From Haematobia irritans (Eukaryota > Arthropoda > Insecta > Diptera > Muscidae), in the NCBI RefSeq assembly GCF_050003625.1, contig NC_134397.1:147807526-147871525 (forward strand): 64,000 nucleotides of DNA, written 5' to 3'. The translations under genes and the position numbers were made by a program. The notes beneath the pieces are model-generated. The model saw only the letters and a list, made by a program, of their open reading frames with translations, had not been told where the DNA came from and searched no databases. Positions 4,746 to 57,300 of the stretch are shown one piece after another; the first letter of the stretch is position 1, and each line of letters begins with the position of its first letter.

Positions 4746-5062
4746 TAGGTTAGGTATAGTGGCAGCCCGATATTTCAGAGTCACTTAGAGTATTCAGTCC
4801 ATTGTGATACCACAATGGTTAACATCTCTCTTATAACTGAGTGCTTCCCGATTCTATGTTAAGCTCAATGACAAGGGACCTCCTTTTTTATAGCCGAGTC
4901 CGAACTGCACATTGCAGTGAAACCATTTAGAGAAGCTTTGAAACACTCAGAAATGTCACCAGCATTACTGAGGTTGGATAATCCACCGCTGAAAAACTTT
5001 TTGGTGTTTGGTCGAAACTTGGTTTGAACCCACGACCCTGTATATGCACCACGGCGGCTCCC
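4746..5062 (-). mobile_element. tRNA-derived SINE, near full length
   Basis: On the minus strand the element starts gggagccgccgtggtgca, then gtcgtgggttcaaaccaa (degenerate B box), and ends in gggctgccac and ataacctaaccta. The A-box part of the tRNA-like head is deleted: compared with the copy at 36,606, about 20 bp between gtgca and tatac are missing. The 3' tail of about 75 bp is shared with the LINE at 49,378. This copy could not be expected to have a normal pol III promoter. Confidence 0.85.
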
Positions 5063-5890
5063 GATTACCCGATTTAAACTTTAAGCTTTAGGGATTTTGT
5101 AGAAGTCTAAAAACTTTATTGCATGACAAACCACTCGGAGGTCACTTGTCATTGAACTGAATATAGAATAGAGCAGCACTCAATGATAATAAAGAAATTC
5201 ATCACCTGTGATATTATAATGCTCCAGATAGTTGATTATTTGGTGTTAAACATCAATCTATTCTAGAGTTCCTCCTCGATATATGTATGTAATAGAATCT
5301 CTTAACGTCAATATTTGGTGTCAAATGTCTAGCCTATGTATATGAGACGAGGCCAATCATAATGTCTAAGATCACTTATAGTTTGTCATTGGTGGGCCTT
5401 AGTGTATCTATTCGTTCTCAGATTCTATGCCCCTTTTAATTGTTGCTCGTCACAGTTTATAACCATTGTCCCTAAGGCCACAAGCACAACTGTGGCCAAT
5501 GTGTATCTGCAAATGGGTACAGTGAAGTGAAGTGAACTCAATGTTTGAATTGCGGCAAACTAAAAGTGTTAAAATTATTACAGTCCCCCAGGCCATTAGT
5601 GCGCGTAGTGGTGTGACCTTTAACGCACGAACATCACAGACACTCACCCACCACCAGCGTTGTGTGTGGTAATATTAGCATAATAATAGAGCAAATGCAG
5701 GTTATAGCCATGTAAAAAGTCGGTTAGTGAATATTGCGTGTAACGCATGGGTGCATTCAACAAGACCATGTTTTACGAGCCTATCCGTCCAAATGTCCAA
5801 AACAGACAAATGCATTGATGTACGATGGGGGTATGGTAATTTGAGGAATATATTCAGCGAACTGCAGAAACTCATTATGTATTTGTGCCA
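5063..5890. other. Unassigned intergenic DNA
   Basis: The first 50 bp contain gggattttgtagaagt, a remnant of the Helitron-related family. The remainder is less AT-rich than its surroundings and may be true host intergenic sequence. Open frames of 60-72 residues occur on both strands over each other, with no motif and no codon pattern that supports a gene. Confidence 0.45.
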
Positions 5891-6966: not shown

Positions 6967-7082
6967 TTAACATGGAATCGGGTAGCACTCAGTGATAAGA
7001 GAGAAGTTCACCACTGTGGTATCACAATGGACTGAATAGTCTAAGTAAGCCTGATACATCGGGCTGCCACATAACCTAACCT
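6967..7082 (+). mobile_element. tRNA-derived SINE, 3' fragment
   Basis: It begins ttaacatggaatcgggtagc and ends with catcgggctgccacataa and cctaacct. This is the 3' third of the SINE seen complete at 4,746, in the opposite orientation. The tRNA-like head is absent, as expected for a 5'-truncated retroposed copy. Confidence 0.85.
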
Positions 7083-8144
7083 ACTTTTAGCCGAAATCAA
7101 TAAATTTGAACATATTTTATTAGCCCTAAATTTAGAATATACTCTCGTATGTGAGACTATAATGATATTGTATGAAATTAGTAATTCACACACTATCTGT
7201 GTAACTATGACGATGACCTCTCTAAATGTTATAATTTAACCTAATAATAATAGATGTAATGGAATATTTCAAATAAGTCATTGTTGTTAAAATGTTCATT
7301 CGTTTAATGTTGTTGCTGCTGCTGATGCTTTTTCATCTATGACGACAACATTATAATTATTTTGGAAAATATATTCCTCCCCAATTGTTGCAGTTGTTGT
7401 AGATTTTATTGGCATTTGTTTTGATACTAGGGACATAAGGTGCCCTCACACATAAAATAAAATTACATGAAAAACTCCAATTATACCTTATATTTATTGC
7501 AGATTAGGAAGAGGGAACTATTGTAAGGTGGGACATCATATTATTATTATTAAGCACACTATTAAAAATTGTCCACCATTTAAAGTGGCGGGATCACATT
7601 ATTCCGGTCACTCCAAGAGTAGGTGGTCGCCATTTAATCATCATTTCCATGTCATTGCCTTTGACTCGCAAATACTACAAAGGTTTGCAAGGCTCGACTA
7701 CACAGAAAAAATATCACCAAAAGATTTCCAATTAAAAAGTTGAAAAATTTTTCAATTAATAAATTAATTAATAAATTAACTTAAATTAATCAAAATAGAA
7801 ACACAAAGATAATTATGTCAATGATTGAAATTTTTTAATTTAAAAAATACTTCATACAATTGACATTTTAATTAAACTCGGAAGACTTAAAAATTTACTT
7901 CAAACAATATATTTTAAATCAAACTAAAAACACTAACCCCCATTTTCATGAAGCTCCGTTAGTGCTACGTCAGCTAACGAAATTTTAAACCGTACTATGG
8001 ACATATCTGTCATCTTGCCTATATATTTCATATGACAGTTAGGAACTTAACCGCTGAAATTTTTTCAGTAAAACTTAACCGGGTCACTTGATAATATATA
8101 GCATTTTAGGGGGTTTGATGACAAATCTTTTCCCAAGCAAATCA
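7083..8144. other. Unassigned intergenic DNA with AT-rich dispersed repeat
   Basis: 7,083-7,740 has no repeat signature I recognise and includes short trinucleotide runs (gttgttgctgctgctg near 7,308). 7,740-7,925 consists of attaat/aattaa motifs of the dispersed AT-rich repeat also seen at 12,440. No gene is supported. Confidence 0.5.
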
Positions 8145-14255: not shown

Positions 14256-15050
14256 TTATCTAGATTTGTGCTATATCCTCACACACACGATTTGAAGTTT
14301 TCATCAAAGCCAAAACCCGTCATTTAGTCCAAGTAAAACACTTGCAGAGTCATTTGAATAAAGGTTACCTTGAAAATAAGAAATTCAAAGTTTTGCATAA
14401 AGGATATTGTACACTCACATTCGTGCATATTTATATTCACTTGTATATGGAATACGTCAAAAAATTATTTTCATATGGAAATTCCTGAATAATTTACGCT
14501 ATCGTTTTAAACCGTAGCGTATAGAGAACTATGTAAAAAAAATGTGCATGAGTTCAACTGGAGAAGAAAAAATTGATACAAATTTCTTTTAAACATCGCG
14601 TGCGTTTTTTTCATATTTGGAAATAAACATCCAAAGGACATTCATGCCTCTTTTGCATATTGTTCACTGCACGTGGATATCTATATTCAAACATATAGGT
14701 TAATAGGGTGAAGCGAAATCATTAACGATACATTGTAATGTAGTTCATGTCAAATGAGGAAATATCAGTAAAATTGAGTCAACGACAGTTTTTTTTATTG
14801 ATGTCACTAAAACTGTTAATTACGACAATGAAAACTTTCGTTGTATATACGAATTATTTTCGTTAAATCAATTGCCGATGCTTATATACTGGCGTTTGCA
14901 TCCAGGAACGTTATATTTAAGAAAATGTAATGCCACGTATATAATATGTTCTAACATATAACAGTCCGAAACATGTTGTACTAGTTTATGAACATTAAAA
15001 GCTTGTACATAAAAATAATGTGCTAAAAATTTGAGTTACAAACATATATG
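14256..15050. other. Unassigned intergenic DNA
   Basis: This stretch shows no terminal repeats, tandem structure or open frame of note. Its composition is more even than the elements around it, and it may be host intergenic sequence. Confidence 0.45.
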
Positions 15051-15085
15051 TTAGGTTAGGTGGCAGCCCGATGTATCAGGCTCAC

Positions 15086-15494
15086 CAAAGATAATTGAGA
15101 AGAAGATGCAGTCTTTTCATAGCAAAACTGAAGCACCAGAGGACTCTGCCAACAAAATATCATAAAGTTTACGTCGACGTGTCTCTCAAATGTACTGCCG
15201 TTTGCGTCGGAAAATATCATAACATTAGCGTTTTTCATAAATTTCTGAATAAAAACCCACAAAAGCAATACCAAAACGATTGTAGAAAATTAAAATAAAA
15301 CGTATGTGTATTTTAAAGCGAATATTCATTATGGTTTTATGTGAATATATCCGTTTTAAATTTATTCCTGGGCAGAGCTGCTTTGGAAAAATTGACAAAT
15401 AAAACAATTTTTTCTCATAGCCCTCTACACCTTGACATTTGTTTTCTCTTTATAAGAGCACAATGCTTAATCTTGTTATACTCAATTATCTTTG
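15086..15494. mobile_element. 409-bp MITE with 14-bp perfect terminal inverted repeats
   Basis: The ends are caaagataattgag and ctcaattatctttg, an exact inverse. The flanks are ggctcac on both sides (15,079-15,085 and 15,495-15,501), a 7-bp duplication of SINE sequence. CANNG-type ends are typical of hAT elements, but those normally make 8-bp duplications. Here the eighth base differs, so the superfamily is uncertain. A 67-codon open frame inside has no recognisable domain. Confidence 0.8.
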
Positions 15495-16583
15495 GGCTCA
15501 CTTAGACTATTCAGTTCATTGTGATACTACATTGGTGAACTTCTCTCTTATCCATAAGCGTAGGAAGGCCTCTGGGGAGGGGGCTTAGACCCCCCAGAAA
15601 AATTTTAGCCCCCCCCCCCAGAATTTGAAAACCTATTTACCATTTTACATTTTTCTAAAAATGAAACAAGTATATGCAACTGCACAAAGTACCGCTAAGG
15701 ACTTTCATGCACAATCGAATTACTTTGGTTGTGGTAGTAGTTGCCGATGGCAATGTTTGAAATCTGATATTTATAAAATAAATCTGTGGTTGAACTTTTG
15801 ATTCAGTTGAATAACTAAAGCTCCTTTATTATTTTGTTTAGTCTGGTTTTGTCAATTTAATTAAAAAAATAGAAATTGATACTATTCTTTCATAAATTAA
15901 TATCTTAATAATGCTGCAAAAAAGCATAGCCAAAAAGAAGTGAAAATGTTCTTCTTGGGTCCGGAAGTGGTGCAAAATTGGCGGAGAAGCGATTAATGTA
16001 ATATGAAATTGTCAAAGAACGAATGTCCACCGTTTCAACAGCCGTTGCAATGAATTTGCATCACTTCTTAAGTTGTGATCCAAATTCAGTGTTTTGAATG
16101 TGAATTAAAAAATTTTGTTATATTTTCCCAAATAATTAATTTTTATATTTTTTATGATTTTTAATGCATTCTAACGCTTGTTTGAAACGTTCTATAAAAA
16201 TTTAGCATTTTTGTGCCAAAATTTGAATAATATGTACCATTTTATTTATCCTTACTTAAAAAAAAAAAATAAAAAATTACGCATTAAAATATGAAAAAAA
16301 TGAAGTAAAAAAACTTCCTGTGTAGTTAAAATAATTAACTTCTTCGTGAGGACATTTTTGGAAGTGCTTTTAAAGTTGTGCCTTTAGAACAACTCCCAAT
16401 TTTTTGCTGGGAAAAGTGTGGAACTACTTTTAGTTGCTTTATTATAAATTAGGTTAGGTTAAAGTGGCAGCCCGATTAAATTTCAGGCTCACTTAGACTA
16501 TTCAGTCCATTGTGATACCACATTTAACTAAAAGTACCTATTACATATGGGCACTTCTAGTCTTAACCACTGAACCTTCTCTA

Positions 16584-17408
16584 TTATTTACTTTTGTGGA
16601 ACCAACCAGATTGCTCCAAAAACATTAACAAACTGCTTAAGTTAACGTTTTCCAGGTCAGCCAGTAATCTAAAGCTATATGCTCCTAAAATTCGCTTACG
16701 CCTTACACAAAAAGCAGGACACTCACACAAGAGGTGTTTAATTGATTCCTTTTCCTCCACGTCATGACAGCTTATACAATAGTCATTATACTTCGCACCT
16801 ATAGTTTTTGCAAATTCGCCTATCAGGCAGCGACCCGTTATAGCAGATATTAGGAGTGCTATCTGACGCCTTGAGAACACTAGCATATCTAGTGTGCGGT
16901 TTAAGTTTAAATGGGGCCATATTTGCTTGGTGTCGTTACAACCCTTGCAATTTTCCCATCGAATATTGGCCATCATAACAGCCTTCTCACGCAGTAAGAG
17001 CTTGCAGGTGGCCAGAGGCATACCAACAAATTCTAGTTCCCCTGGAATATGTAAGGTAGTTCCTAGCCTTGCTAACACATCTGCTTCACAGTTCCCCGGT
17101 ATGTTCCTATGACCAGGCACCCATATTAGGTGAATATTGTACTGCTCAGTCATCTCGTTGAGAGATTTGCGGCAGTCTATGGCCGTTTTTGAGTTAAGGA
17201 ACACAGAGTCCAAGGATTTTATTGCAGGTTGACTGTCTGAGTATATATTAATGACAATATTTGTTGGAACATTACTTCTCAGCCTATTCACCACCTCTCT
17301 TATTGCCAATATTTCAGCCTGAAAAACACTACAGTGATTAGGTAATCTTTTCGCTATTCGAATTTCCAGATCTTTAGAATATACTCCGAACCCCACTTGT
17401 CCATTCAA
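16584..17408 (-). pseudogene. LINE ORF2 fragment: RNase H domain and C-terminal cysteine motif
   Basis: The 274-residue frame begins just downstream of the first RNase H aspartate block (the longer copy has FYTDGSKLNGQVGFGVYS). It keeps FQAEILAIREVV, IYSDSQPAI and WVPGHRNIPGNCEAD, which hold the remaining catalytic acidic and histidine positions of the RNase H fold. It ends with a CxxC...HxxC-like cluster (CISCH...HLLCECPAF) as in other LINEs of this type. A 10-bp deletion near 17,457-17,462, relative to the copy at 50,385-50,394, shifts the frame against the upstream reverse transcriptase. The piece is therefore part of a dead ORF2. Confidence 0.9.
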
Positions 17409-17431
17409 TTTGGAGCCATCAGTATAGAAAT

Positions 17432-18409
17432 CTATATATCTTTTATTCCCCGGGGTCTGTGCTCACTGTTGGGAATTAGAGTTTCAAACTTTTTGTCGAA
17501 AAGTGGTTTTGCCAGGGTGTAATCCACTACGTTAGGCACATGTGGCATTACTTTGAGGACCGAACTATGACCGTACATTTTTTCCGACCACAGCGATAGC
17601 TCGCGCAACCGCACAGCCGTTGTTGCAGGTGACTGTTTGGCCAAAATGTCTAAAGGCAATAGATGTAGCATGACATTAAGGGAGTCTGTTCCTGTCTTAC
17701 TAAATGCGCCTGAGATACATAAGCTCGCCATACGCTGAACTTTATCTAAACAAGTCGGTTTCTGAAGTGCCGGCCACCAGACTACAACACCATATAGCAT
17801 TATAGGTCTAACCACTGCCGTGTATAGCCAATGCACAATTTTTGGTCTTAGTCCCCACTTTTTCCCTATTGCCTTTTTGCACGAGTACAAAGCTACCGTG
17901 GCTTTTCTCGCCCTCTCTTCAATATTAAGCCTAAAATTCAGCTTCCTGTCCAAAATAACGCCAAGGTATTTTGCACACTCACCAAAGGGAATTTCAGTAC
18001 CCCCTAAGGAAATGGGCCTAACCGTGGGAGTTTTGCGATCTTTGCAGTACATGACTATTTCTATCTTTGCTGGATTTACACCAAGACCATTATCTTTCGC
18101 CCATTTCTCAGTCATCCGGAGAGCTCTCTGTATAATATCTCTGATTGTGGATGGGAATTTTCCCCTGACTGCTAGTGGCACATCATCTGCGTATGCCACC
18201 ACTTTTATCCTTTCTTTTTCTAGATAAACCAGAAGGTTGTTTATAGCAACATTCCAAAGAAGAGGTGATAGAACTCCTCCTTGGGGAATGCCTCTGTTCA
18301 CATACCTTTGTATGTTTGCTTGCCCTGGTGTGGCTGAAATACGTCTCTTCATTAGAAGTTCGTCTAACAGCCTAAGTATACCTGGATCAACATTCAGAGT
18401 TGTCAGTCC
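17432..18409 (-). pseudogene. LINE ORF2 fragment: reverse transcriptase palm/thumb
   Basis: The open frame (306 residues from 18,352) contains RGIPQGGVLSPLLWNVAINN and the catalytic VVAYADD, the standard motifs of the reverse transcriptase palm. The thumb region with LGVILDRKLNF and TAVVRPIMLYGVVVWWPAL follows. The endonuclease and the fingers are missing because the LINE copy is 5'-truncated. In this copy YADDV is followed by P where the longer copy has A, one of few visible differences. It is not functional on its own. Confidence 0.92.
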
Positions 18410-18820
18410 ATTATAAATTAATTATCGAGTTATTTTGATGCCTATATTGTTATTCATTTTTATGAAATAAGACATTAATTGAACCTATAAGTTCAGTCTA
18501 TAAATTTTCAGCTAGGGGGCTATAGCCCCCCCTAGGAAAATTGTCTAGCTACGCTAATGCTCTTATCACTGAGTACTGCCCGATTCCATGTTAAGCTCAA
18601 TGACAAGGGACCTCCTTTTTATAGCTGAGTCCGAACGGCGTTCCACATTGCGGTGAAACCACTTAGAGAAGCTTTGAAACCCTCAGAAATGTCACCAGCA
18701 TTACAGAAGTGGGATAATCCACCGCTGAAAACTTTTTGGTGTTCGGTCGAAGCAGGAATCGAACCCACGATCTTGTGTATGCAAAGCGGGCATGCTAACC
18801 ATTGAACCACGGTGGCTCCC

Positions 18821-24141: not shown

Positions 24142-24761
24142 ATATACTTGGTATTTACGGAGAACATCCTATTGTGCATTTGCTGTTGCTACTGTTATTA
24201 TTTTTTCGAGTTGGTTCTGCTTCAGTTTTTTTCATAGCTCTCTGTTAATAGTTCAAGGTAACACACATAAAGTTTTGTTATATGGATGTAAATTCACCAT
24301 CACCATCGTCTTCGTCATCATCATTTCATTGCACTCCATTCCATTCCAGCTGAGTTCAAATAGTTAGTGGGTCTATAGGTCGTAATTTCGTTGACTGAAC
24401 ACTAGACTGACTGATGGTCTGTTCGTTTTTGGTTGGTTGCTATGGTGTAGATGACTGGTGGGCATGTGCCGGTGTAAAAGTGCATGTACTCTACTAAGAA
24501 ACAAATGCAAATGCGAAAGAAAAACTATGACTGATGGTGGGAAATAGAATTGTGGGCTTAAAATCTCATTAGCATATTTGTATAGAGAAAAAAAAGCATT
24601 TTTAATTGTCAGTATTTTTACCGGAGGAATTACTTTGGTGGAAATGTAGTCAGTTAAGCTTGCTCATTAATTTATCTTGTGGTTATCAATAATATCCTTT
24701 AGATTTTACACTCTGAAAATAGAGAGATTGAGAGAGAGAGCGAGAGAAAATTCAAAGTACG
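24142..24761. other. Unassigned, possibly host intergenic DNA
   Basis: The sequence has mixed composition with short runs such as caccatcaccatcg and a GA run at 24,722-24,745. No transposon ends or genes were recognised. Confidence 0.45.
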
Positions 24762-24932
24762 TTAGGTAAAATGGCAGACTAATTTGTTTCAGGCTCACTT
24801 AGACTATTCAGTCCATTGTGATACCACAATAACTAAAATTACCTATTACATATAAGCACTTATAGTTTCTACCGCCGAACCCACCCGATTGTTTTGCTCT
24901 GTTGTACCAACCAGTTTGTTTCAAAAACATAA
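24762..24932 (-). mobile_element. RNase H LINE, short diverged 3' fragment
   Basis: It matches the LINE 3' end at 49,378-49,550 in order: taggtaaaatggcag, ttcaggctcacttagactat, tcagtccattgtgatacca, cctattacatat and ccaaccag. It covers only the 3' untranslated region and the last codons. It is more diverged than the two other copies and is probably an older insertion. Confidence 0.75.
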
Positions 24933-38165: not shown

Positions 38166-38862
38166 AGCATATGTTTTCGCCTTGAGAGCAGCATTTTATG
38201 TATGTGTGGACAGTGTTTTGTTTATCATTTTGGCATTATAGGCACAATTTTTTTTTGGTTCGTTAAAAGAAATCAGGGGTCTTCATAAAAATAACGAAAG
38301 GGCACTATACTCTTTTTAGAGTTGGGACAGTAAAATGAAATAAGGAGGAAATAGTGCAAAATTACACAGTAAAATGTATAAAAACAAAGTTTAGTTCCTC
38401 TTTATTAATAAGTAGTCCACGAGGAGTTGACGGACACCTTCAAATATAAAAGCGGGCATTAAATTCGAGTTTACAGCTAAAACAATTTAAAAAGTTTATT
38501 TTCTTTAAAATGAATTATTAAAGAAAAATAAAAGGCATTTTAGAGCGATGGTGTTAAATGCTAGTTAAAAACTGTTCACGCCTAAATAAATTTATGTTTA
38601 TATTATAAAATTATTTATGTATGTTTATACTCGACTCCACGTTCTTCTTTTGTTAGAGTTTTTGAATTCCTTCCAAATTTTAAAGTTTTGTACCAAAAAC
38701 AGTTTTTGTTGTTATTTTTACAATAAAAAATAATATTTTATCCCAAAATCAGTCAATTTTGTTTATATCAAGCACTGTTACTGAGTATAAATCTTTAAGT
38801 TTCGAAGTTTCATTATAAAAATTTAATATAGTATAAATATACATGTGTAAATAAAAAAAAGT

Positions 38863-38937
38863 GTTCGGTCGGAGCAGGAATTGAACCCACGACCCTTTGC
38901 ATGCAAGGCAGACATGCTAACCACTGCTCCACGTGGC
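38863..38937 (-). other. tRNA-like segment (SINE-head type)
   Basis: On the minus strand it reads gccacgtggagcagtggtta then gcatgtctgccttgcatg and a perfect B box, gggttcaattcc. It matches the SINE head but no SINE body follows. The acceptor arms do not pair as in a tRNA, so I do not call a tRNA gene. It could act as a pol III promoter. Confidence 0.7.
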
Positions 38938-40408: not shown

Positions 40409-40483
40409 GTTCGGTCGGAGCAGGAATTGAACCCACGACCCTTTGCATGCAAGGCAGACATGCTAACCACTGCTCCACGTGGC
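40409..40483 (-). other. tRNA-like segment (SINE-head type)
   Basis: It is the counterpart of 38,863-38,937, with the same B box (ggttcaattcc on the minus strand) and only minor differences. Its conservation in both long elements shows it belongs to the element rather than being a chance insertion. Confidence 0.7.
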
Positions 40484-41456: not shown

Positions 41457-41899
41457 GTGCGTGTATTTGATACTGTGGGTCCCATATTACAGATCCATAT
41501 TCAAGGATTGGACGCACAAGTGAAGTGTACAAATTCCTTGTTACAAATGGGTCAGAAAACTCCTTACACCAGCGTTTGACAAATCCAAGTGATCCATATG
41601 ATTTATTGACGGTCATAGATATGTGAGATCTAAAATCTATGTTAGTTTCCGATCTAACAGTATTCCGAGATCCTTAAAGGATTCAACAGTTTCAAGCATC
41701 TCACCACAGTAATGCTGGTGACATTTCTGAGTATTTCAAAGCTTCTCTAAGTGGTTCCACTGCAATGTGGACTCGGACTCGGCTATAAAAGGGAGGTTCC
41801 TTGTCATTGAGCTTAAGAGAGAAGTTCACAACTGTGGTATCACAATGGACTGAATAGTCTAAGTGAGCCTGAGACATCGGGCTGCCACCTAATATAACC

Positions 41900-43616: not shown

Positions 43617-44820
43617 ACAGGTTGGCTGATAAGTCCCCGGTCTGACGTCTGGCGTCGCTAGTATTAAATGCATATTATTTTTATATAGTACCAACCTTCA
43701 AATGATTCGTTTCAAAATTTGACGTCTGTAAGTCAATTAGTTTGTGAGATAGAGTGTCTTTTGTGAAGCAACTTTTGTTATTGTGAAAAAAATTGAAAAA
43801 AAAGGAATTTCGTGTTTTGATAAAATACTGTTTTTTGAAGGGAAAAAATACGGTGGAAGCAAAAACTTGGCTTGATAATGAGTTTCCGGACTCTGTCCCA
43901 GGGAACTCAATAATAATTTATTGGTATGTAAACGCAGTGGACGCCCGAAAAAGGTGGTTACCGACGAAAACATCAAGTTGATCGAGATAACAGAGACCTT
44001 AAAGGTATCAAAGGAACGTGTTGGTCATATCATTCATCATATCATATCATTCATCATGCAAAATGGGTGCCGCGGAGCTCACATTTGACCAAAAACAACA
44101 ACGTGTTGATGATTCTGAGCGGTGTTTGCAGCTGTTAACTCGTAATACACCCGAGTTTTTCCGTCGGTATGTGACAATGGATGAAACATGGCTCCATCAC
44201 TACACTCCTGAGTCCAATCGACAGTCGGCTGAGTGGACAGCGACCGGTGAACCGTCTCCGAAGCGTGGAAAGACTCAAAAGTCCGCTGGCAAAATAATGG
44301 CCTCTGTTTTTTGGGATGCGCATGGAATAATTTTTATCGATTACCTTGAGAAGGGAAAAACAATCAACAGTCACTACTATATGGCGTTATTGGAGCGTTT
44401 GAAGGTCGAAATCGCGGCAAAACGGCCCCATATGAAGAAGAAAAAAGTGTTGTTCCACCAAGACAACGCACCGTGCCACAAGTCATTGAGAACGATGGCA
44501 AAAATTCATGAATTGGGCTTCGAATTGATTCCCCACCCACTTTATTCTCCAGATCTGGCCCCCAGCGACTTTTTCTTGTTCTCAGACCTCAAAGGAATAC
44601 TCGCAGGGAAAAAATTTGGCTGCAATGAAGAGGTGATCGCCGAAACTGAGGCCTATTTTAAGCAAAACCGAAGGAGTACTACCTAAGTGCTATCAAAAAA
44701 TTGGAAGGTCGTTATAATCGTTGTATCGCTCATAAAGGGAACTATGTTGAATAATAAAAACGAATTTTGACAAAAAATGTGTTTTTCTTTGTAAGACCGG
44801 GGACTTATAAGCCAACCTGT
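43617..44820 (+). mobile_element. Himar1-like mariner with intact terminal repeats
   Basis: The 5' terminal repeat starts acaggttggctgataagtcc and the 3' end is its inverse, ggacttataagccaacctgt with one difference. TA flanks it at 43,615-43,616 and 44,821-44,822. At 1,204 bp it is shorter than an intact irritans-type mariner because of a deletion in the DNA-binding region. With both ends intact it could in principle be moved by a transposase from elsewhere. Confidence 0.95.
43793..44754 (+). pseudogene. Himar1-like mariner transposase, broken
   Basis: The start codon has become TTG (43,793). The frame reads KEFRVLIKYCFLKGKNTVEA, the N-terminal helix-turn-helix of irritans mariners, to about codon 45. 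A deletion of roughly 70-80 bp with frame changes then removes part of the linker and second helix-turn-helix. A second open stretch, 44,018-44,686, carries the WVPREL-linker equivalent region and catalytic domain with all three aspartates (VTMDETWLHH, VLFHQDNAPCH, SPDLAPSDFFLF, D,D34D spacing). A last frameshift after EAYFKQN spoils the C-terminus, which ends at 44,754. It is not functional, though the catalytic core is well preserved. Confidence 0.93.
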
Positions 44821-45700: not shown

Positions 45701-48700
45701 GTCCTTTTCGCTCTGGGACGCTTAGTTTAGGAGATATGGACAAAAGAAGTTTCTCGTATAAAAATTTAATTTTTTTTAGGTTTTGGGTGGATTTTTCCAT
45801 TTTTTTTGGGGGTGGTCACGAATTAAAGTCCTTTTCGCTCTAGGACGCGTATTTAAGGAGATATAAGCAAAAAAAAATTTCATATAAAAATTTAATTTTT
45901 TTTAGATTTTGGGTGGATTTTTCAATTTCCTGGGGGTTTTTCATATAAAAATTACAATTTGTTAGGTTTTGGGTGGATTTTTCAATTTTCTGGGGGTGGT
46001 CACGAACTAAAGTCCTTTTCGCTCTAGGACGCGTATTTAAGGAGATATGGGCCAAAGAAGTTTTAAATTTTTTTATGTTTTGGGTGGATATTTCAATTTT
46101 CTGGGGGTGGTCACATATTAAAGTCCTTTTCGCTCTAGGACGCTTAGTTTAGGAGATATGGGCAAAAGAAATTTTTCATATAAAATTTCAATTTTTTTTG
46201 GTTTTGGGTGGATTTTTCAATTTTTTTGGGGTGGTCACGAATGAAAGACCTTTTCGCTCTAGGACGCTTAGTTTAGGAGATATGGGCAAAAGAAGGTTTT
46301 CATATACAAATTTAATTTTTTTTTAGGTTTTGGGTGAATTTTTAAATTTTTGGGGGTGGTCACGAATTAAAGTCCTTTTCGCTCTAGGACGCTTAGTTTA
46401 GGAGATATGGGCAAAATATGTTTTTCATATAAAAATATCAAATTTTTTTATGCTTTGGGTGGATTTTTCTCTAGGACGCTTAGTGGTCACGAATTAAAGT
46501 CCTTTTTGCTCTAGGATGCTTAGTTTAGCAGATATGGGCAAAAGAAGCTTTTCATATAAAAATTTCATTTTTTTATGATTTGTGTGGATTTTTCAATTTT
46601 TTGGGGGTGGTCACGAATTAAAGTCCTTTTCGCTCTAGGACGCTTAGTGTAGGAGATATTGGCAAAAGAAGTTTTTCATATAACAATTTCATTTTTTTTT
46701 TTGGATTTGTGTGGATTTTTCAATTTTTTGGGGTGGTCACGAATTAAAGTCCTTTTCGCTCTAGGACGCTTAGTTTAGGAGATATGGGCAAAATAAGTTT
46801 TTCATTTAACAATTTAATTTTTTTAGGTTTTGGGTGGATTTTTCAATTTTTTGGGGGGTGGTCACGAATTAAAGTCCTTTTCGCTCTAGATCGCTTAGTT
46901 TAGGAGATATGGGCAAAAGAAGTTTTTCATATAAAAATTTCAATTTTTTAGGGTTTGGGTGGATTTTTCAATTTTTTGGGGTGGTCACGAATTAAAGTCC
47001 TTTTCGCTCTAGGACGCTTAGTTTAGGAGATATGGGCAAAATAAGTTTTTCATTTAACAATTTAATTTTTTTTAGGTTTTGGGTGGATTTTTCAATTTTT
47101 TGGGGGGTGGTCACGAATTAAAGTCCTTTTCGCTCTAGATCGCTTAGTTTAGGAGATATGGGCAAAAGAAGTTTTTCATATAAAAATTTCAATTTTTTAG
47201 GGTTTGGGTGGATTTTTAAATTTGTTGGGGGTGGTCACGAATTAAAGTCCTTTTCGCTCTAGGACGCTTAGTGTAGGAGATATTGGCAAAAGAAGTTTTT
47301 CATATAAAAATTTAAATTTTTTTAGGTCTTGGGTGGATTTTTAAATTTTTTGGTGGTGGTCACGAATTAAAGTCCTTTTCGCTCTAGGACGCTTAGTTTA
47401 GGAGATATGGGCAAAAGAAGTTTTTCATATAAAATTTTCAATTTTTTTAGGTTGTGGGTGGATTTTTCAATTTTTTGGGGTGGTCACGAATTAAAGTCCT
47501 TTTCGCTTTAGATCGCTTAGTTTAGCAGATATGGACAAAAGATGTTTTTCATATAAAAATTTCAATTTTTTAGGTTTTGGGTGGATTTTTCAATTTTTTG
47601 GGGGTGGTCACAAAATAAAGTCCTTTTCGCTCTACGACGCTTAGTTTAGGAGATATGGGCAAAAGAAGTTTTTCATATAAAAATTTCAATTTTTTTAGGT
47701 TTTGGGTGGATTTTTCAATTTGTTTTGGGTGGTTATGAATTAAAGTCCTTTTCGCTATAGGACACTTAGTTTAGGAGATATGGGCAAAAGAAGTTTTTCA
47801 TATAAAAAATTTAATTTTTTTTTGGTTTTGGGTGGATTTTTCAATTTTTTGGGGTGGTCACGAATTAAAGTCCTTTTCGCTCTAGGACGCTTAGTTTAGG
47901 AGATATGGGCAAAAGAAGTTTTTATATAAAAAATTATTTTTTTTTAGGTTTTAGGTGGATTTTGCAATTTTTTGGGGTGGTCACGAATTAAAGTCCTTTT
48001 CGCTCTAGGACGCTTAGTTTAGGAGATATGGGCAAAAGAAGTTTTTCATATAAAAATTTAAACTTTTTTAGGTTTTTGGGTGGATTTTTCAATTTTTTGG
48101 GTGGTCACGAATAAAAGTCCTTTTTGCTCTAGGACGCTTAGTTTAGGAGATATGGGCGCAAGAAGTTTTTCATATAAAAATTTAAATTTTTTAGGTTTTG
48201 GGCGGATTTTTCAATTTTTTGGGGGTGGACAAAATAAAGTCCTTTTCGCTCTAGGACGCTTAGTTTAGGAGATATGGGCACAAGAAGTTTTTCATATAAA
48301 AATTTCAATTTTTTAGGGTTTGGGTGGATTTTTAAATTTGTTGGGGGTGGTCACGAATTAAAGTCCTTTTCGCTCTAGGACGCTTATTGTAGGAGATATT
48401 GGCAAAAAAAGTTTTTCGTATAAAAATTTAATTTTTTTTAGGTTTTGGGTGGATTTTTCAATTTGTTTTGGGTGGTTATGAATTAAAGTCCCTTTCGCTC
48501 TAGGACACTTAGTTTAGGAGATATGGGCAAAAGAAGTTTTTCATATAAAAAATTCAATTTTTTTAGGTTTTGGGTGGATTTTTCATTTTTTTGTGTTGGT
48601 CACGAATTAAAGTCCTTTTCGCTCTAGGATGCTTAGTTTAGGAGATATGGGCAAAAGAAGTTTTTCATATAAAAATTTAAATTTTTTTAGGTTTTAGGTG

Positions 48701-49377
48701 GATTTTTCAATTTTTTGGGGGTGGTCATGAATTAAAGTCCTTTTCGCTCTAGGACGCATATTTAAGGAGATATGGGCAAAAGAAGTTTTTCATATACAAA
48801 TTTCAATTTTTTTAGGTTTTGGGTGGATTTTTCAATTTTTTTGGGATGGTCACGAATTAAAGTCCTTTTCGCTCTAGGACGCATATTTAAGGAGATATGG
48901 GCAAAAGAATTTTTTCATATAAAAATTTCAATTTTTTTACGTTTTTGGTGGATTTTTCAATTTTTTGGGGGTGGTCACGAATTAAAGTCCTTTTCGCTCT
49001 AGGACGCATATTTAAGGAGATATGGGCAAAAGAAGTTTTTCATATAAAAATTTCAATTTTATTAAGTTTTTGGTGAATTTTTCAATTTTTTGGGGGTGGT
49101 CACGAATTAAAGTCCTTTTCGCTCTAGGACGCTTAGTTTAGGAGATATGGGCAAAAGAAGTTTTTCATATAAAAATTTCAATTTTTTAGGTTTTGGGTGA
49201 ATTTTTCAATTTTTTGGGGGTGGTCACGAATTAAAGTCCTTTTCGCTCTAGGACGCATATTTAAGGAGATATGGGCAAAAGAAGTTTTTCATATAAAAAT
49301 TTCAATTTTTTTAGGTTTTGGGTGAATTTTTCAATATTTTGGGGGTGGTCACGAATTAAAGTCCTTTTCGCTCTAGG
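45701..49377. repeat. 125-bp satellite array, left block (about 29 monomers)
   Basis: The monomer contains cttttcgctctaggacgc, ttaggagatatgggcaaaag, tttttcatataaaaattt, ggttttgggtggatttttca and ggggtggtcacgaattaaag. Monomers here are more variable than in the right block, with length changes and the truncated form at about 46,465-46,490, where the end of a monomer is replaced by tttctctaggacgcttagtg. The short frames over it are artefacts. The LINE insertion ends this block. Confidence 0.95.
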
Positions 49378-49507
49378 TTAGGTTAAAGTGGCAGCCCGAT
49401 TAAATTTCAGGCTCACTTAGACTATTCAGTCCATTGTGATACCACATTTAACTAAAAGTACCTATTACATATGGGCACTTCTAGTCTTAACCACTGAACC
49501 TTCTCTA

Positions 49508-52123
49508 TTATTTACTTTTGTGGAACCAACCAGATTGCTCCAAAAACATTAACAAACTGCTTAAGTTAACGTTTTTCAGGTCAGCCAGTAATCTAAAGCT
49601 ATATGCTCCTAAAATTCGCTTACGCCTTACACAAAAAGCAGGACACTCACACAAGAGGTGTTTAATTGATTCCTTTTCCTCCACGTCATGACAGCTTATA
49701 CAATAGTCATTATACTTCGCACCTATAGTTTTTGCAAATTCGCCTATCAGGCAGCGACCCGTTATAGCAGATATTAGGAGTGCTATCTGACGCCTTGAGA
49801 ACACTAGCATATCTAGTGTGCGGTTTAAGTTTAAATGGGGCCATATTTGCTTGGTGTCGTTACAACCCTTGCAATTTTCCCATCGAATATTGGCCATCAT
49901 AACAGCCTTCTCACGCAGTAAGAGCTTGCAGGTGGCCAGAGGCATACCAACAAATTCTAGTTCCCCTGGAATATGTAAGGTAGTTCCTAGCCTTGCTAAC
50001 ACATCTGCTTCACAGTTCCCCGGTATGTTCCTATGACCAGGCACCCATATTAGGTGAATATTGTACTGCTCAGCCATCTCGTTGAGAGATTTGCGGCAGT
50101 CTATGGCCGTTTTTGAGTTAAGGAATACAGAGTCCAAGGATTTTATTGCAGGTTGACTGTCTGAGTATATATTAATGCCAATATTTGTTGGAACATTACT
50201 TCTCAGCCAATTCACCACCTCTCTTATTGCCAATATTTCAGCCTGAAAAACACTACAGTGATTAGGTAATCTTTTCGCTATTCGAATTTCCAGATCTTTA
50301 GAATATACTCCGAACCCCACTTGTCCATTCAATTTGGAGCCATCAGTATAGAAATCTATATATCTTTTATTCCCCGGGGTCTGTGTACACCACGCCTCAC
50401 TGTTGGGAATTAGAGTTTCAAACTTTTTGTCGAAAAGTGGTTTTGCCAGGGTGTAATCCACTACGTTAGGCACATCTGGCATTACTTTGAGGACCGAACT
50501 ATGACCGTACATTTTTTCCGACCACAGCGATAGCTCGCGCAACCGCACAGCCGTTGTTGCAGCTGACTGTTTGGCCAAAATGTCTAAAGGCAATAGATGT
50601 AGCATGACATTAAGGGAGTCTGTTCCTGTCTTACTAAATGCGCCTGAGATACATAAGCTCGCCATACGCTGAACTTTATCTAAACAAGTCGGTTTCTGAA
50701 GTGCCGGCCACCAGACTACAACACCATATAGCATTATAGGTCTAACCACTGCCGTGTATAGCCAATGTACAATTTTTGGTCTTAGTCCCCACTTTTTCCC
50801 TATTGCCTTTTTGCACGAGTACAAAGCTACCGTGGCTTTTCTCGCCCTCTCTTCAATATTAAGCCTAAAATTCAGCTTTCTGTCCAAAATAACGCCAAGG
50901 TATTTTGCACACTCACCAAAGGGAATTTCAGTACCCCCTAAGGAAATGGGCCTAACCGTGGGAGTTTTGCGATCTTTGCAGTACATGACTATTTCTGTCT
51001 TTGCTGGATTTACACCAAGACCATTATCTTTCGCCCATTTCTCAGTCATCCGGAGAGCTCTCTGTATAATATATCTGATTGTGGATGGGAATTTTCCCCT
51101 GACTGCTAGCGCCACATCATCTGCGTATGCCACCACTTTTATCCTTTCTTTTTCTAGAGAAACCAGAAGGTTGTTTATAGCAACATTCCAAAGAAGAGGT
51201 GATAGAACTCCTCCTTGGGGAGTGCCTCTGTTCACATACCTTTGTATGTTTGCTTGCCCTAGTGTGGCTGAAATACGTCTCTTTATTAGAAGTTCGTCTA
51301 ACAGCCTAAGTATACCTGGATCAACATTCAGAGTTGTCAGTCCATTTAATATCGAGCTCGGATGGACATTATTGAACGCCCCTTCGATGTCTAGAAACGC
51401 CACGATTGTGTATTCTTTGACAGATAGTGAGCTTTCAATAAAGCTGACCAGTTCATGCAATGCGGTCTCAGTAGACCTGCCCTTCGAGTATGCATGCTGT
51501 CGTTTCGAGAGCAAACTTGAATCCACGCTAGTTCTAAGATACATGTCTATCATCCTCTCCAGGGTCTTAAGTAGGAATGAGGATAAGCTGATAGGTCGGA
51601 AATCCTTCGCACTCGAGTGAGAGGCTTTTCCTGCTTTAGGTATGAAGACGACTTTTGTTTCCGTCCACTTTTCTGGAATATATGCTAAGTTTACACATTG
51701 TTTATATATCACCGTCAACAAGGGGATAATTCTTTCAACCACTGCCTGTAACTCCGCCGGAGTAATTCCATCAGGTCCGGGGGATTTGAATGGTCCAAAG
51801 CTATTTAAAGCCCATTTTATTCTAGATTCCGACACAATTTCCTCGATAGGAAATGATCGCCGAGCCTCTGTTACACTGCCGGAACATGGTTCAACCGTCT
51901 GATTTCCAGGGAAGTGTGTGTCCAAAAGTACCTCCAACGTCTCCTCACTGGACGTTGTCCAATTTCCCTCCGATGTTTTAATGAAACCTGGAGCGGTGTT
52001 AGTGGATGCTAGTACTTTCCGTAGTCTGGAAGCCTCTGACGTATTCTCAATACTGCTACAGTAATCATCCCAAGAGTTTTGTTGAGACCTTCTCAGTTCT
52101 CGTTTATATTCTCTCAGATTCAT
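49508..52123 (-). pseudogene. LINE ORF2: reverse transcriptase, RNase H and C-terminal cysteine motif (N-terminus detached)
   Basis: The 871-residue open frame copies element RNA at a nicked target. Reverse transcriptase motifs appear in order: FGPFKSPGPDGITPAELQA (about residue 110), KDFRPISLSSFLLKTLERMI (about 180), GRSTETALHELVSFIE, AFLDIEGAFNNV (first catalytic aspartate, about 245), GTPQGGVLSPLLWN (about 305) and AYADDVALAV (catalytic YADD, about 335). RNase H follows from about 590: FYTDGSKLNGQVGFGVYS, FQAEILAIREVV, IYSDSQPAI and WVPGHRNIPGNCEAD, with the acidic set intact. The end has CISCH...HLLCECPAF. The first ATG at 52,123 is not the true start: the endonuclease lies upstream in another frame, separated by at least two frameshifts between 52,125 and 52,235. 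The domain set therefore looks intact while the full ORF2 is broken. Confidence 0.93.
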
Positions 52124-52202
52124 CTTGTAAGTGTCCCAATCCTCCGGAGCTCTTGTGGAATTGCTTTGTTAAAGAGCTTCCTGCAGGATTTCCTCATATT
52201 AC

Positions 52203-53108
52203 TTAACTCCGTAGTCCACCATGGCGGCCGATTTTTCCCCTTGGCTTTCCTCTAGGGCAAGCAGCTTTCAGTGAAATGTTGAAGGCCTTCGTAATCCGCT
52301 CCACTGCGTGTTCGATATCTTGCACAGTGCTCATATTTGTCTCCGGCATTTCCGGTATCATCAAATTGAACGATTCCCTATACCTATTCCAATCAGCTTT
52401 CCTAACATTTGGCGGAAATATGGTCTTTGAAGTACGAACACCCAATCTGAAACTGATGTAGCGATGATCTGAGAAGCTATGTTCCCTCAAAACTTGCCAC
52501 TCAGATATCTTATCATTCAGTTCCGGAGAGGTCAACGTTACGTCCAAAACCTCTTGTCTGTTCCTGGTGACGAAGGTTGGTGCATCTCCCTTATTGCAAA
52601 CTACCAGGTTAGTACGCAAAATAAACTCTATTAGCGACTCTCCCCTTGCATTAGTATCACTACTTCCCCAAATACTATGATGTGCATTTGCATCGCATCC
52701 CATAATGAGTTTTGTCTTTGTTTTTAGTGACTCCTCAACTAAGGTCTTAACGGCACAGGGTGGCATATCCCTATCATGTCCCATGTAGACCGAAGATACC
52801 CAATATTTGCATGTGGATATCTCTAGACTGGCTACGACAGTGTCTGCATTGCTCAATGAAGGAAGCAGAAACAAGTTTAGTTCGTTTTTAGCAATTATAC
52901 ATGCTCGATTTATATCGTTACCGGTATTATGCAAAAGTTTGAAACCCGGAGTGCTTAATTCGCAGATCTTGTTCTTATATATGTATGGTTCTTGAATAAG
53001 AACTATATCTATGTCTCCTTTCATCAGGAGAACTTTTAAGGCAGCACTAGCGGCCTTACAATGGTGAAGATTTATCTGGAGGAACCGTAGAACCATCCAA
53101 ATTTTCAA
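52203..53108 (-). pseudogene. LINE ORF2: AP-type endonuclease domain
   Basis: The 301-residue frame starts with LRFLQINLHHCKAA and contains the expected order of apurinic endonuclease-like motifs: IVLIQEPYI with the catalytic glutamate, a VSSVYMGHDRD stretch, LIMGCDANAHHSIWGSSDTN, LDVTLTS and HSFSDHRYISF with the terminal SDH. This domain nicks the target to prime reverse transcription. The frame ends prematurely after GKIGRHGGLRS. In another frame the sequence continues PPWWTTELSNMRKSCRKLF, the usual connection to the reverse transcriptase. A frameshift has thus separated the domain from the reverse transcriptase. Its start overlaps the end of ORF1 by 53 bp. Confidence 0.92.
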
Positions 53109-54250
53109 CCACCGTCACATCAGCCGCTTCAATTGAGTCATCAAGGGCTTCCTCTTCACAGATCTCGGTGACTCTCGCAACAATCCGCGGTTCAGCTTTG
53201 GTGAGGCTTGAGCCTGTAGAAACTTCCCGCATATGATTTTCGCCATAGTCTGCAGGTTTTATGTCTCCTTCGTCTTCGCTAGAAGATTTTTTCACTGCTG
53301 ACTCTACCGGAGGCTTGTCCGTTTCGGTATCCTTTGGCTGATCGCTTTTGTATACCTTCATATGGATATCATGAAAGCCATAACTTACGCGTCCTTGGGT
53401 CTGGGCTAGATGTGGCAGCGACTCTATGTTTAATATAAACACCGCATGTCGTCTTGGTCCATCCACTTCATCCAAACGACCAACCTTCTAATCGGCGGTT
53501 GGAAGATCTGGGTTACATTATTTTAGTCTCTCTAGTATTGACTCAGGATCAGGAGGGTTTGCCGGTATCCATGCATGTGCTCTAGGTTTAGCCGGTATGT
53601 CTTTTTTATCGACTAACTCCAAAGCGGCTCCTTCCCAAACTTCACCAATTAGCATCAATGCAGCTTTAAAGCAATCCATAGACCTCTGGTCTGCAAAAGC
53701 TATTAACTTATATCGTCCTTGATACCATCCAGCATCTTGCTGTCGAGGACTTGGTCCGGGAAACTTTTTTCGCACCTCTGAGTAGACACCAGACATCGCG
53801 TTCTCAATTTCCCCCCATTTTTGGCTTGGAATCATACCGTCCAAGGCTGTCTTTTGCAACTGAGGCAAACGATCTTTGATCCCGTTTAGAGGATGGTAGC
53901 TCATCCGGTGATCGTTCCCCTTTTCCAGCTTCAAGAATTCCTTGAGCCCATTTTAAGGAATCGCTTTGCTTAGCCGACAACGTGCTTGGGTCGACTGATC
54001 CTAATTTCTTTAGGATAAACAAAGCATTTCTTCGTTCCTTGAATCTCTTTCGAGAGGGATTGCCTCCTTTTGATGTCGTCACCTTAGACAAGGTTCTACT
54101 TGCCAAAGTGTCACCGCCAGTCGACCCGTCTACAGGTCGACTAATTGGGCCTGACTCTTGGTCGCTGCCCAAATTTATAACTTCAGTCGTTACCCGTCCA
54201 CTGGGCCCTGAAGTTAGCAACCCAGTGGATGACTTTGAATTTCGCTGCAT
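53056..54250 (-). pseudogene. LINE ORF1, broken into three frames
   Basis: The first part (54,250 to 53,804, 148 residues) is rich in S, T, G and K. The second (53,934 to 53,518) has MSGVYSEVRKKFPGPSPRQQ, WYQGRYKLIAFADQRSMDCF and ALELVDKKDIPAKPRAHAWI. The third (53,475 to 53,056) has EVDGPRRHAVFILNIESLPH followed by an acidic tail. The middle and third parts resemble the ORF1-type domain found in many insect proteins annotated DUF4780; this is recalled, not searched. ORF1 proteins of LINEs bind element RNA. A frameshift near 53,850-53,930 and a stop plus frameshift between 53,475 and 53,520 break it. Confidence 0.75.
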
Positions 54251-54334
54251 GGTGGTTTATTATTTCCACCACACGTGAAATTCGTAATAAGTACTTATTA
54301 CGATGAAATACTCCGCTATTAGAAAACACGTCCG

Positions 54335-57300
54335 TTTCGCTCTAGGACGCATATTTAAGGAGATATGGGCAAAAGAAGTTTTTCATATAAAAATTTCAAT
54401 TTTTTTAGGTTTTGGGTGAATTTTTCAATTTTTTGGGGGTGGTCACGAATTAAAGTCCTTTTCGCTCTAGGACGCATATTTAAGGAGATATGGGCAAAAG
54501 AAGTTTTTCATATAAAAATTTCAATTTTTTTAGGTTTTGGGTGGATTTTTAAATTTTTTGGGGGTGGTCACGAATTATAGTTCTTTTCGCTCTAGGACGC
54601 ATATTTAAGGAGATATGGGCAAAAGAAGTTTTTCATATAAAAATTTCAATTTTTTTAGGTTTTGGGTGGATTTTTCAATTTTTTGGGGGTGGTCACGAAT
54701 TAAAGTCCTTTTCGCTCTAGGACGCATATTTAAGGAGATATGGGCAAAAGAAGTTTTTCATATAAAAATTTCAATTTTTTTAGGTTTTGGGTGGATTTTT
54801 CAATTTTTTGTGGGTGGTCACGAATTAAAGTCCTTTTAGCTCTAGGACGCATATTTAAGGAGATATGGGCAAAAGAAGTTTTTCATATAAAAATTTCAAT
54901 TTTTTTACGTTTTTGGTGGATTTTTCAATTTTTTGGGGGTGGTCACGAATTAAAGTCCTTTTCGCTCTAGGACGCATATTTAAGGAGATATGGGCAAAAG
55001 AAGTTTTTCATATAAAAATTTCAATTTTTTTACGTTTTTGGTGGATTTTTCAATTTTTTGTGGGTGATCACGAATTAAAGTCCTTTTCGCTCTAGGACGC
55101 TTAGTTTAGGAGATATGGGCAAAAGAAGTTTTTCATATAAAAATTTCAATTTTTTTAGGTTTTGGGTGGATTTTTCAATTTTTTGGGGGTGGTCACGAAT
55201 TAAAGTCCTTTTCGCTCTAGGACGCTTAGTTTAGGAGATATGGGCAAAAGAAGTTTTCCATATAAAAATTTCAATTTTTTTAGGTTTAGGGTGGATTTGT
55301 CAAATTTTTGGGGGTGGTCACGAATTAAAGTCCTTTTCGCTCTAGGACGCTTAGTTTAGGAGATATGAGCAAAAGATGTATTTCATATAAAAATTTCAAT
55401 TTTTTTAGGTTTGGGGTGAATTTGTCAAATTTTTGGGGGTGGTCACATATTAAAGTCTTTTTCGCTCTAGGACGCTTAGTTTAGGAGATATGGGCAAAAG
55501 AAATTTTTCATATAAAATTTCAATTTTTTTAGGTTATGAGTGGATTTTTCAATTATTTTGGGGTGGTCACGAATGAAAGACATTTCCCTCTAGGACGCTT
55601 AGTTTAGGAGATATGGGCAAAAGAAGGTTTTCATATACAAATTTAATTTTTTTTTAGGTTTTGGGTGAATTTTTAAATTTTTTTGGGGTGGTCACGAATT
55701 AAAGTCCTTTTCGCTCTAGGACGCTTAGTTTAGGAGATATGGGCAAAATATGTTTTTCATATAAAAATATCAAATTTTTTTATGCTTTGGGTGGATTTTT
55801 CTCTAGGACGCTTAGTGGTCGCGAATTAAAGCCCTTTTCGCTCTAGGACGCGTAGTTTAGGAGATATGGGCAAAATAAGTTTTTCATATAAAAATATCAA
55901 ATTTTTTATGTTTTGGGTGGATTTTTCTCTAGGACGCTTAGTGGTCACGAATTAAAGTCCTTATTGCTCTAGGATGCTTAGTTTAGGAGATATGGGCAAA
56001 AGAAGTTTTTCATATAAAAATTTCATTTTTTTAGGATTTGTGTGGATTTTTTAATTTTTTATGGGTGGTCACGAATTAAAGTTCTTTTCGCTCTAGGACG
56101 CTTAGTGTAGGAGATATTGGCAAAATAAGTTTTTCATATAACAATTTCATTTTTTTTTTTTGGATTTGTGTGGATTTTTCAATTTTTTGGGGTGGTCACG
56201 AATTAAAGTCCTTTTCGCTCTAGAACGCTTAGTTTAGGAGATATGGGCAAAATAAGTTTTTCATTTAACAATTTAATTTTTTTTAGGTTTTGGGTGGATT
56301 TTTCAATTTTTTGGGGGTGGTCACAAAATAAAGTCCTTTTCGCTCTACGACGCTTAGTTTAGGAGATATGGGCAAAAGAAGTTTTTCATATAAAAATTTC
56401 AATTTTTTTAGATTTTGGGTGGATTTTTCAATTTGTTTTGGGTGGTTATGAATTAAAGTCCTTTTCGCTATAGGACACTTAGTTTAGGAGATATGGGCAA
56501 AAGAAGTTTTTCATATAAAAAATTCAATTTTTTTTGGTTTTGGGTGGATTTTTCAATTTTTTGGGGTGGTCACGAATTAAAGTCCTTTTCGCTCTAGGAC
56601 GCTTAGTTTAGGAGATATGGGCAAAAGAAGTTTTTCATATAAAAAATTCAATTTTTTTAGGTTTTAGGTGGATTTTTCAATTTTTTGGGGTGGTCACGAA
56701 TTAAAGTCCTTTTCGCTCTAGGACGCTTAGTTTAGGAGATATGGGCAAAAGAAGTTTTTCATATAAAAATTTAAACTTTTTTAGGTCTTTGGGTGGATTT
56801 TTCAATTTTTTGGGTGGTCACGAATAAAAGTCCTTTTTGCTCTAGGACGCTTAGTTTAGGAGATATGGGCAAAAGAAGTTTTTCATATAAAAATTTTAAT
56901 TTTTTTAGGTTTTAGGTGGATTTTTCAATTTTTTGGGGGTGGTCACGAATTAAAGTCCTTTTCGCTCTAGGACGCATATTTAAGGAGATATGGGCAAAAG
57001 AAGTTTCTCATATACAAATTTCAATTTTTTTAGGTTTTGGGTGGATTTTTCAATTTTTTTGGGGTGGTCACGAATTAAAGTCCTTTTCGCTCTAGGACGC
57101 ATATTTAAGGAGATATGGGCAAAAGAAGTTTTTCATATAAAAATTTCAATGTTTTTAGGTTTTGGGTGGATTTTTCAATTTTTTGGGGGTGGTCACGAAT
57201 TAAAGTCCTTTTCGCTCTAGGACGCATATTTAAGGAGATATGGGCAAAAGAAGTTTTTCATATAAAAATTTCAATTTTTTTAAGTTTTGGGTGAATTTTT

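Follow-up and report, generated by a model that had tools for sequence, protein, structure and literature searches.

The 64,000-nt stretch of Haematobia irritans DNA analysed here (contig NC_134397.1, hereafter the window) contains a LINE and several copies of a SINE with a tRNA-like head, and a sequence-only reading had proposed that the two end in nearly the same 3′ tail and form a mobilisation pair. This raises the questions of whether the tail is common to both families, and whether it indicates that the SINE is copied by the LINE enzyme. The features assigned to the LINE, of which the window holds one nearly full-length copy (A) and two shorter ones (B and C), are as follows.

49376..54334, minus strand: LINE copy A, almost complete, within an array of 125-bp tandem repeats
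49374..49448, minus strand: 3′ tail of LINE A shared with the SINE, comprising a predicted RNA three-way junction and (TAACC)n repeats
49508..52123, minus strand: reverse transcriptase (RT) and RNase H open frame of LINE A (RVT_1, E 1e-38; RNase_H, E 1e-12)
52203..53108, minus strand: endonuclease frame of LINE A (Exo_endo_phos_2, E 3e-24)
53518..54250, minus strand: ORF1 region of LINE A, two overlapping frames, including frame 53518-53934
49366..49377, no strand: target-site duplication of LINE A, 3′ side, TTTCGCTCTAGG on the plus strand, partly overlapping the tail repeat
54335..54346, no strand: target-site duplication of LINE A, 5′ side, 12 bp
16452..18409, minus strand: LINE copy B, 5′-truncated, 98.6% identical to A, with the same tail and the duplication TAATTTATAAT
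24758..24930, minus strand: LINE copy C, diverged (81%), with the same tail

Endonuclease, RT and RNase H domains occur together in LINE A, as is required of an RNase H-bearing non-LTR retrotransposon, and we take this layout and the RT motifs to resemble those of the LOA clade (Drosophila LOA and Bilbo, mosquito Lian). Thirteen aligned protein relatives were 41–56% identical to the LINE, and identities ranged from 37 to 60% among the 120 relatives listed of 1800 with E ≤ 0.001; the annotated ones include sequences from Drosophila, Musca, Bactrocera, Calliphora, a hoverfly, an ant and a moth, and most are unnamed contigs. The frames of LINE A are broken in ORF1 and also between the endonuclease and the RT, and a DUF4780-like stretch in frame 53518-53934 scored 23.6 bits, just below the Pfam cut-off of 24.5. 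All ten other copies for which the 5′ edge was fetched have approximately 18 additional bases at this end (TCAACCGTCGAACTGAACG..., with the first base differing in one copy), so LINE A is very slightly truncated. Its ends can be placed exactly because the insertion lies within the 125-bp tandem array. This satellite-like array covers at least 13 kb (45,701-49,365 and 54,335-64,000), is broken by LINE A and extends beyond the right end of the window. On the plus strand, the region 44,060-44,760 resembles, by eye, a mariner-type transposase gene.

The SINE is represented in the window by five insertions (S1–S5), one of which is split into three parts.

4746..5062, minus strand: SINE S1, older subfamily, with tail
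6967..7083, plus strand: SINE S2, 5′-truncated, with tail
18561..18820, minus strand: first part of SINE S3, tRNA-like head and body
15495..15552, minus strand: middle part of SINE S3, start of the tail
15047..15085, minus strand: tail end of SINE S3
41698..41899, plus strand: SINE S4, 5′-truncated, with an internal deletion and the tail
5137..5232, plus strand: SINE S5, remnant of an old SINE body in which no tail can be recognised

The copy that the sequence-only reading placed at 15,051 is not a separate SINE; it is the end of S3, whose parts lie at 18,820-18,561, 15,552-15,495 and 15,085-15,047. Two nested DNA transposons interrupt S3, and LINE copy B lies in the larger one. The transposon-like inserts occupy 15,553-18,559 and 15,086-15,494 (minus strand) and have apparent duplications of GATAAGAG (8 bp) and GTGAGCC (7 bp), which gives an order of insertion in which the SINE was followed by the transposon-like inserts, and these by LINE B within the larger insert.

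The head of the SINE consensus contains TGGTGCAATGG and GGTTCGATTCC, which we take to be the A and B boxes of a Pol III-type element. Against the Rfam tRNA model the head scored 17.4 bits (cut-off 29, E 0.59), and ARAGORN detected no tRNA in the SINE. Three tRNA-like heads resembling that of the SINE, with a T-run replacing the rest of the element, are located at 36,606-36,711, 38,861-38,937 and 40,409-40,483, and the sequence beside the latter two recurs elsewhere, including at an insert carried by a LINE copy on C2. SINE copies in the fetched loci L001–L030 show many internal deletions at consensus positions ~205–275, at a frequency that is biased by the query itself carrying such a deletion; the breakpoints between GTCATTGAGCTT and GAAGTTCACCA differ, and the deletions therefore reflect repeated events. 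At L014:1380-1760 a SINE has, by eye, LINE ORF2-like flanks on both sides, with about 200 bp of LINE missing between them. SINE S4 adjoins a fragment of another non-LTR RT (41,467-41,684, minus strand), which is 32% identical to the LINE ORF2.

The 3′ tail of LINE A (49,374-49,448, minus strand, about 75 nt, with the final two bases common to the tail and the target duplication) matches the SINE tail at approximately 91%. Alignment of LINE positions 4885–4959 with positions 276–346 of the SINE consensus gave 90.7% identity over 75 nt (E 3e-24), and the local alignment score of the two tails was 114, compared with a shuffle maximum of 26. The similarity ends sharply upstream of the tail, and the SINE body is unrelated to the LINE: the last kilobase of the LINE scored 22 against the SINE body, which is at background level (shuffle mean 19.6, maximum 29), and a BLAST comparison of the SINE body with the rest of the LINE gave no match with E < 2.5. 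A 36-base core of the tail, allowing up to three mismatches, matched seven sites in the window, three in LINE copies (49,410, 16,486 and 24,792) and four in SINEs (4,778, 7,016, 15,495 and 41,834), with a mean of 0.00 matches over 100 shuffles. Chance similarity of the tails is ruled out by this count and by the alignment score, both compared with shuffles.

The central claim of the sequence-only reading, namely a LINE 3′ end nearly the same as the SINE tail next to an otherwise unrelated SINE, is thus borne out, and the three LINE 3′ strings that it quoted are present at 49,381-49,444 on the plus strand. Its statement that every SINE has this tail applies to the four SINEs that have a 3′ end, since the older piece at 5,137-5,232 lacks a recognisable tail, and its localisation of the LINE tail was right for the 49,378 region but overlooked the LINE tails at 16,450 and 24,758.

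The shared segment is predicted to fold into an RNA three-way junction followed by single-stranded (UAACC)n, and the predicted structure coincides with the shared tail. It would consist of a closing stem (GUGGUA/UGCCAC), a hairpin 1 (UCAC..UGGACU-GAAU-AGUCUA.GUGA), in which the strands AUCACAAUGGAC...GUCUAAGUG are conserved, and a hairpin 2 (GCCUGA/UCGGGC). The LINE A tail has a predicted folding energy of −22.4 kcal/mol (z −3.5), and z was −2.5 or lower in 9/12 tails folded, including S2 (z −2.5), in which the base of hairpin 1 is missing; the tails of the old copies LINE C, S1 and L041 are not clearly distinct from shuffles. Across 11 sequences 94.5% of the cells pair, compared with at most 48.6% when the partners were slid, and two pairs have changed on both sides, a number that is modest evidence alone as it was reached in 12/500 shuffles; such pair counts are only weakly informative because the stems barely vary within the family. 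In the copies seen, the hairpin-2 loop is longer in the LINE (AAATTTAATC) than in the SINE (ATACATC), corresponding to a 3-nt indel, and the bases before AACC are TTT in the LINE and CT or AT in the SINEs. The older SINE subfamily (S1, L041, L019 and L029) has TGAAAT or a similar sequence together with CACTATACC, and is somewhat nearer to the LINE.

A second LINE family ends in the same predicted junction. Locus L034 holds the end of this element, whose ORF2 is 36% identical to that of the window LINE over 318 aa, and whose frame ends about 85 bases before GAGGGATCACAATGGACCTATACTGGTCTAAGTGGGCATCAATATAAAACATTGATGTCACCCTC, followed by (AACCT)n. The tail has a z of −5.3 and keeps the AUCACAAUGGAC and GUCUAAGUG strands, with GAGGG/CCCUC as its closing stem, a C-G instead of a U-A pair at the tip of hairpin 1, and a different, longer hairpin 2. 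A covariance model built from the first LINE and the SINE only found this tail in 280 kb with 23.4 bits (E 6e-4), which was not a blind test because the tail, known from one copy, had been noticed by eye before the model was built. As the second family ends in the same junction, the tail is most likely a LINE feature that the SINE has borrowed.

The tail extends beyond a handful of copies in the 1.17-Gb genome; restriction to so few would have refuted the proposed pairing. Among the best 40 of 122 candidate matches to the LINE 3′ end, 38 traverse the tail and the other two end inside it, a count that is partly circular since the query included the tail. The SINE query held the tail as well, and with it 40 of 41 match rows reached the tail and all full-length SINE matches in the fetched loci (23/23) ran through it. 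The least biased sample consisted of 20 stretches of 10 kb taken at even steps along chromosome C1 (200 kb), and contained 12 matches to the SINE body and 4 to the LINE body, the latter with a stricter cut-off. Scaled from these 12 matches, the genome would hold approximately 70,000 SINE copies of any age (Poisson range approximately 36,000–123,000). The tail was found by search in five of the 12 sampled bodies, and a sixth (L040) has a diverged tail that is visible by eye only and was missed by the model; one further body is cut by the end of its stretch. This less biased sample, with the tail on five or six of the 12 bodies, likewise argues against confinement to a few copies. In the remaining five no tail was present within 260 nt downstream; two of these represent one local duplication, and one, which is 98% identical to the consensus, looks by eye to be interrupted by an insertion. 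No recurrent alternative tail was found among the five beyond the duplicated pair, and a second SINE family with another tail was rejected on this basis. One sampled match (L031) consists of two overlapping SINEs that were merged, and at L031:9400-9717 a piece of SINE tail apparently lies inside an older SINE with its own diverged tail.

Both families include young copies. Substitution divergence from the SINE consensus is 0.9–4.3% in 23 of 25 copies, most of which were chosen by similarity to S4, and the old copies S1 and L041 are 9% and 12% diverged; the best 40 of 1529 candidate LINE 5′ ends are all at least 99% identical over 300 bases. The LINE 3′ ends go down to 92% identity, which made the 5′ ends look younger, and we considered whether 3′ ends had been swapped between elements, an explanation that was set aside since one of these 5′-matched copies (C5:48991321), probed at three points, is collinear with the tail at 99%. 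That copy is absent from the list of 122 3′ candidates, and the search skips common words. Searches outside the fly were uninformative: an exact 24-mer and a gapped tail pattern had no matches in viral contigs or in contigs of prokaryote genomes, a 23-mer of the SINE body had none in viral contigs, and SINE copy S1 had no match in phages or plasmids, collections in which absence says little.

Flanking repeats were searched at 53 SINE or LINE 3′ ends in the fetched loci (44 SINE, 9 LINE). Exact duplications of at least 10 bp were detected at 15/44 SINE and 4/9 LINE 3′ ends, compared with 77/3000 mispaired flanks, and we think that flanks consisting of TAACC repeats account for many of these 77 matches. 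One SINE case was discarded as it was not anchored at the tail. With ambiguous bases assigned to the tail, the duplications are 9–16 bp long for the SINE (n = 14) and 10–15 bp for the LINE (n = 4); they start with TA in 10/14 and 4/4 cases, mostly directly after ...AACC, and are preceded by a T in 9/14 and 3/4. A repeat of at least 7 bp was absent at 27/44 SINE and 4/9 LINE 3′ ends, many of which are fragments or decayed. Ten 5′-complete LINE copies were also probed at the expected position of the 3′ end, which was reached in three, while three of the probes landed, shifted, within ORF2 and the other four hit unrelated sequence. Among the three ends reached, one has a 12-bp duplication (TAGGCATACACT) after AACC, another an 8-bp repeat (CTTGTTTC) after ACCTA, and in the third AACC is joined to TATATG, with no repeat found. 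Some LINE insertions contain little beyond the tail (L030, L034, L042, L044 and L020), two of them with perfect duplications (L034 and L030). The two families are alike both in duplication length and in their terminal (TAACC)n repeats, as the sequence-only reading had predicted for a pair, with 1–7 units at 29 SINE ends and 1–4 units at 10 LINE ends, ranges that overlap.

Taken together, the shared tail and insertion signature point to a stringent-type LINE/SINE pair of a known kind, in which the SINE would be copied in trans by the LINE enzyme, and we consider this the probable explanation (roughly 0.87). The tail would most likely have passed from the LINE to the SINE. We propose that the protein of the LINE, which combines endonuclease, RT and RNase H, recognises a folded three-way junction in the 3′-terminal part of the LINE transcript, and that it would bind this junction on either LINE or SINE RNA. 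A nick in the target would leave a 3′ end ...TA able to pair with the UA of the repeats, reverse transcription would be primed there, and the new copy would join ...AACC to a target starting with TA, with slippage on the (UAACC)n repeats during reverse transcription accounting for their variable number. The SINE would be a Pol III-type element, with a tRNA-like head and its own body, that took the module from the LINE and is borrowing its enzyme. The scheme builds on what has been established for stringent-type LINEs (PMC4176376, PMC3747384): the folded 3′ tail is bound by the LINE protein, SINEs with that tail rely on the LINE, and terminal repeats have been tied to template slippage.

The most serious alternative is that the SINE is served by another subfamily or a sister family of the same LINE clade with the same type of tail, the window LINE being a relative of the true partner. 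An unseen subfamily could be a closer donor, because the SINE and LINE tails in the copies seen differ by the 3-nt loop indel and in the bases that precede the repeats, and the junction itself also occurs in a second LINE family. However, of the two LINE families seen, the window LINE is by far the closer to the SINE tail (~91%, whereas the second LINE was matched by the structure model only, at 23 bits), and it has young copies, as does the SINE, so we regard this alternative as unlikely, with an appreciable chance nonetheless. Much less probable is a shared tail that is merely a relic of former use of the LINE, the present SINE copies being dead or made by other machinery; some copies are indeed old (S1 and L041), but young SINEs retain the tail, the (TAACC)n end and duplications starting with TA, and near-identical LINE copies exist. 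That the LINE tail was instead derived from the SINE, by insertion into the LINE 3′ end or by recombination, with the pairing secondary, is the least credible explanation, for although the SINE seems the commoner element in the C1 sample (with the stricter LINE cut-off), the LINE 3′ UTR directly adjoins the tail without any SINE body in 6/6 copies (A, B, C, L027, L046 and C5:48991321), which rules out simple SINE insertion, the second LINE family carries the junction in a sequence of its own, and LINE insertions reduced to the tail alone (L034, L030) have clean duplications.

The mosquito elements Feilai, Twin and SINE200 are presumably comparable with the present SINE as short retroelements of Diptera, a comparison made by name, and we know of no LINE-matched tail of the present kind on them. 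No earlier description of this LINE/SINE pair was found in the literature searched, which lay mostly outside subscription journals and Repbase. The proposed pairing resembles that of the eel UnaL2 and its SINEs and the zebrafish ZfL2-1 and ZfL2-2, which likewise have a folded 3′ tail shared between LINE and SINE and followed by short tandem repeats (PMC4176376). In those L2-clade elements the structure is a tested single stem-loop that is read mainly via its loop (PMC4176376), whereas the H. irritans tail, known so far from sequence, combines a predicted three-way junction with TAACC repeats and belongs to a LINE with RNase H. Among insects, the SINEs HaSE1 and PxSE5 have tails matching a LINE of the same genome, HaRTE1.1 and PxLINE1, respectively (PMC3272025 and PMC8010984); compared by description, these are lepidopteran elements, with an RTE-type partner in the case of HaSE1 and a 5S rRNA-derived SINE in the case of PxSE5. 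According to dipteran surveys, Drosophila has no SINEs and the blow fly Phormia hardly any, while other dipterans are rich in them, Culex for example having more than ten thousand copies (PMC5084420); in most dipterans they account for less than 1% of the transposable element content (PMC6327564). The Phormia authors noted that lineage-specific SINEs could escape detection (PMC5084420). Library-based repeat annotation may overlook SINEs such as the one described here, which we estimate at tens of thousands of copies in a fly genome that also contains a LINE, present in many young copies, with the same 3′ end. Together with the natural SINE variants, the two versions of the LINE tail also offer material for testing which features of its RNA 3′ end such a LINE enzyme recognises.

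It is possible, although we hold this only tentatively, that one entire lineage of RNase H LINEs in flies is stringent-type and recognises one branched RNA element, with the junction and the AUCACAAUGGAC/GUCUAAGUG strands kept, outer stems that change yet still pair, and CCTAA ends, and that the abundant SINE of this genome exploits the module; these ends might then be a relic of past telomere-type targeting. The terminal CCTAA repeats, of which up to seven units occur at one SINE end, are identical in sequence to the arthropod telomere repeat TTAGG read on the other strand, a repeat that is not known from flies. Two insertions were seen next to existing repeats or ends: at L012:1391-1413 a SINE has inserted straight into the terminal TAACC repeats of a pre-existing SINE, and at L020:1057-1085 a LINE tail directly follows a '...GATGCCACATTAACCTAACCTAACC' end of unknown origin. 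Insertion into existing TAACC tails may perhaps reflect a preference for such tails.
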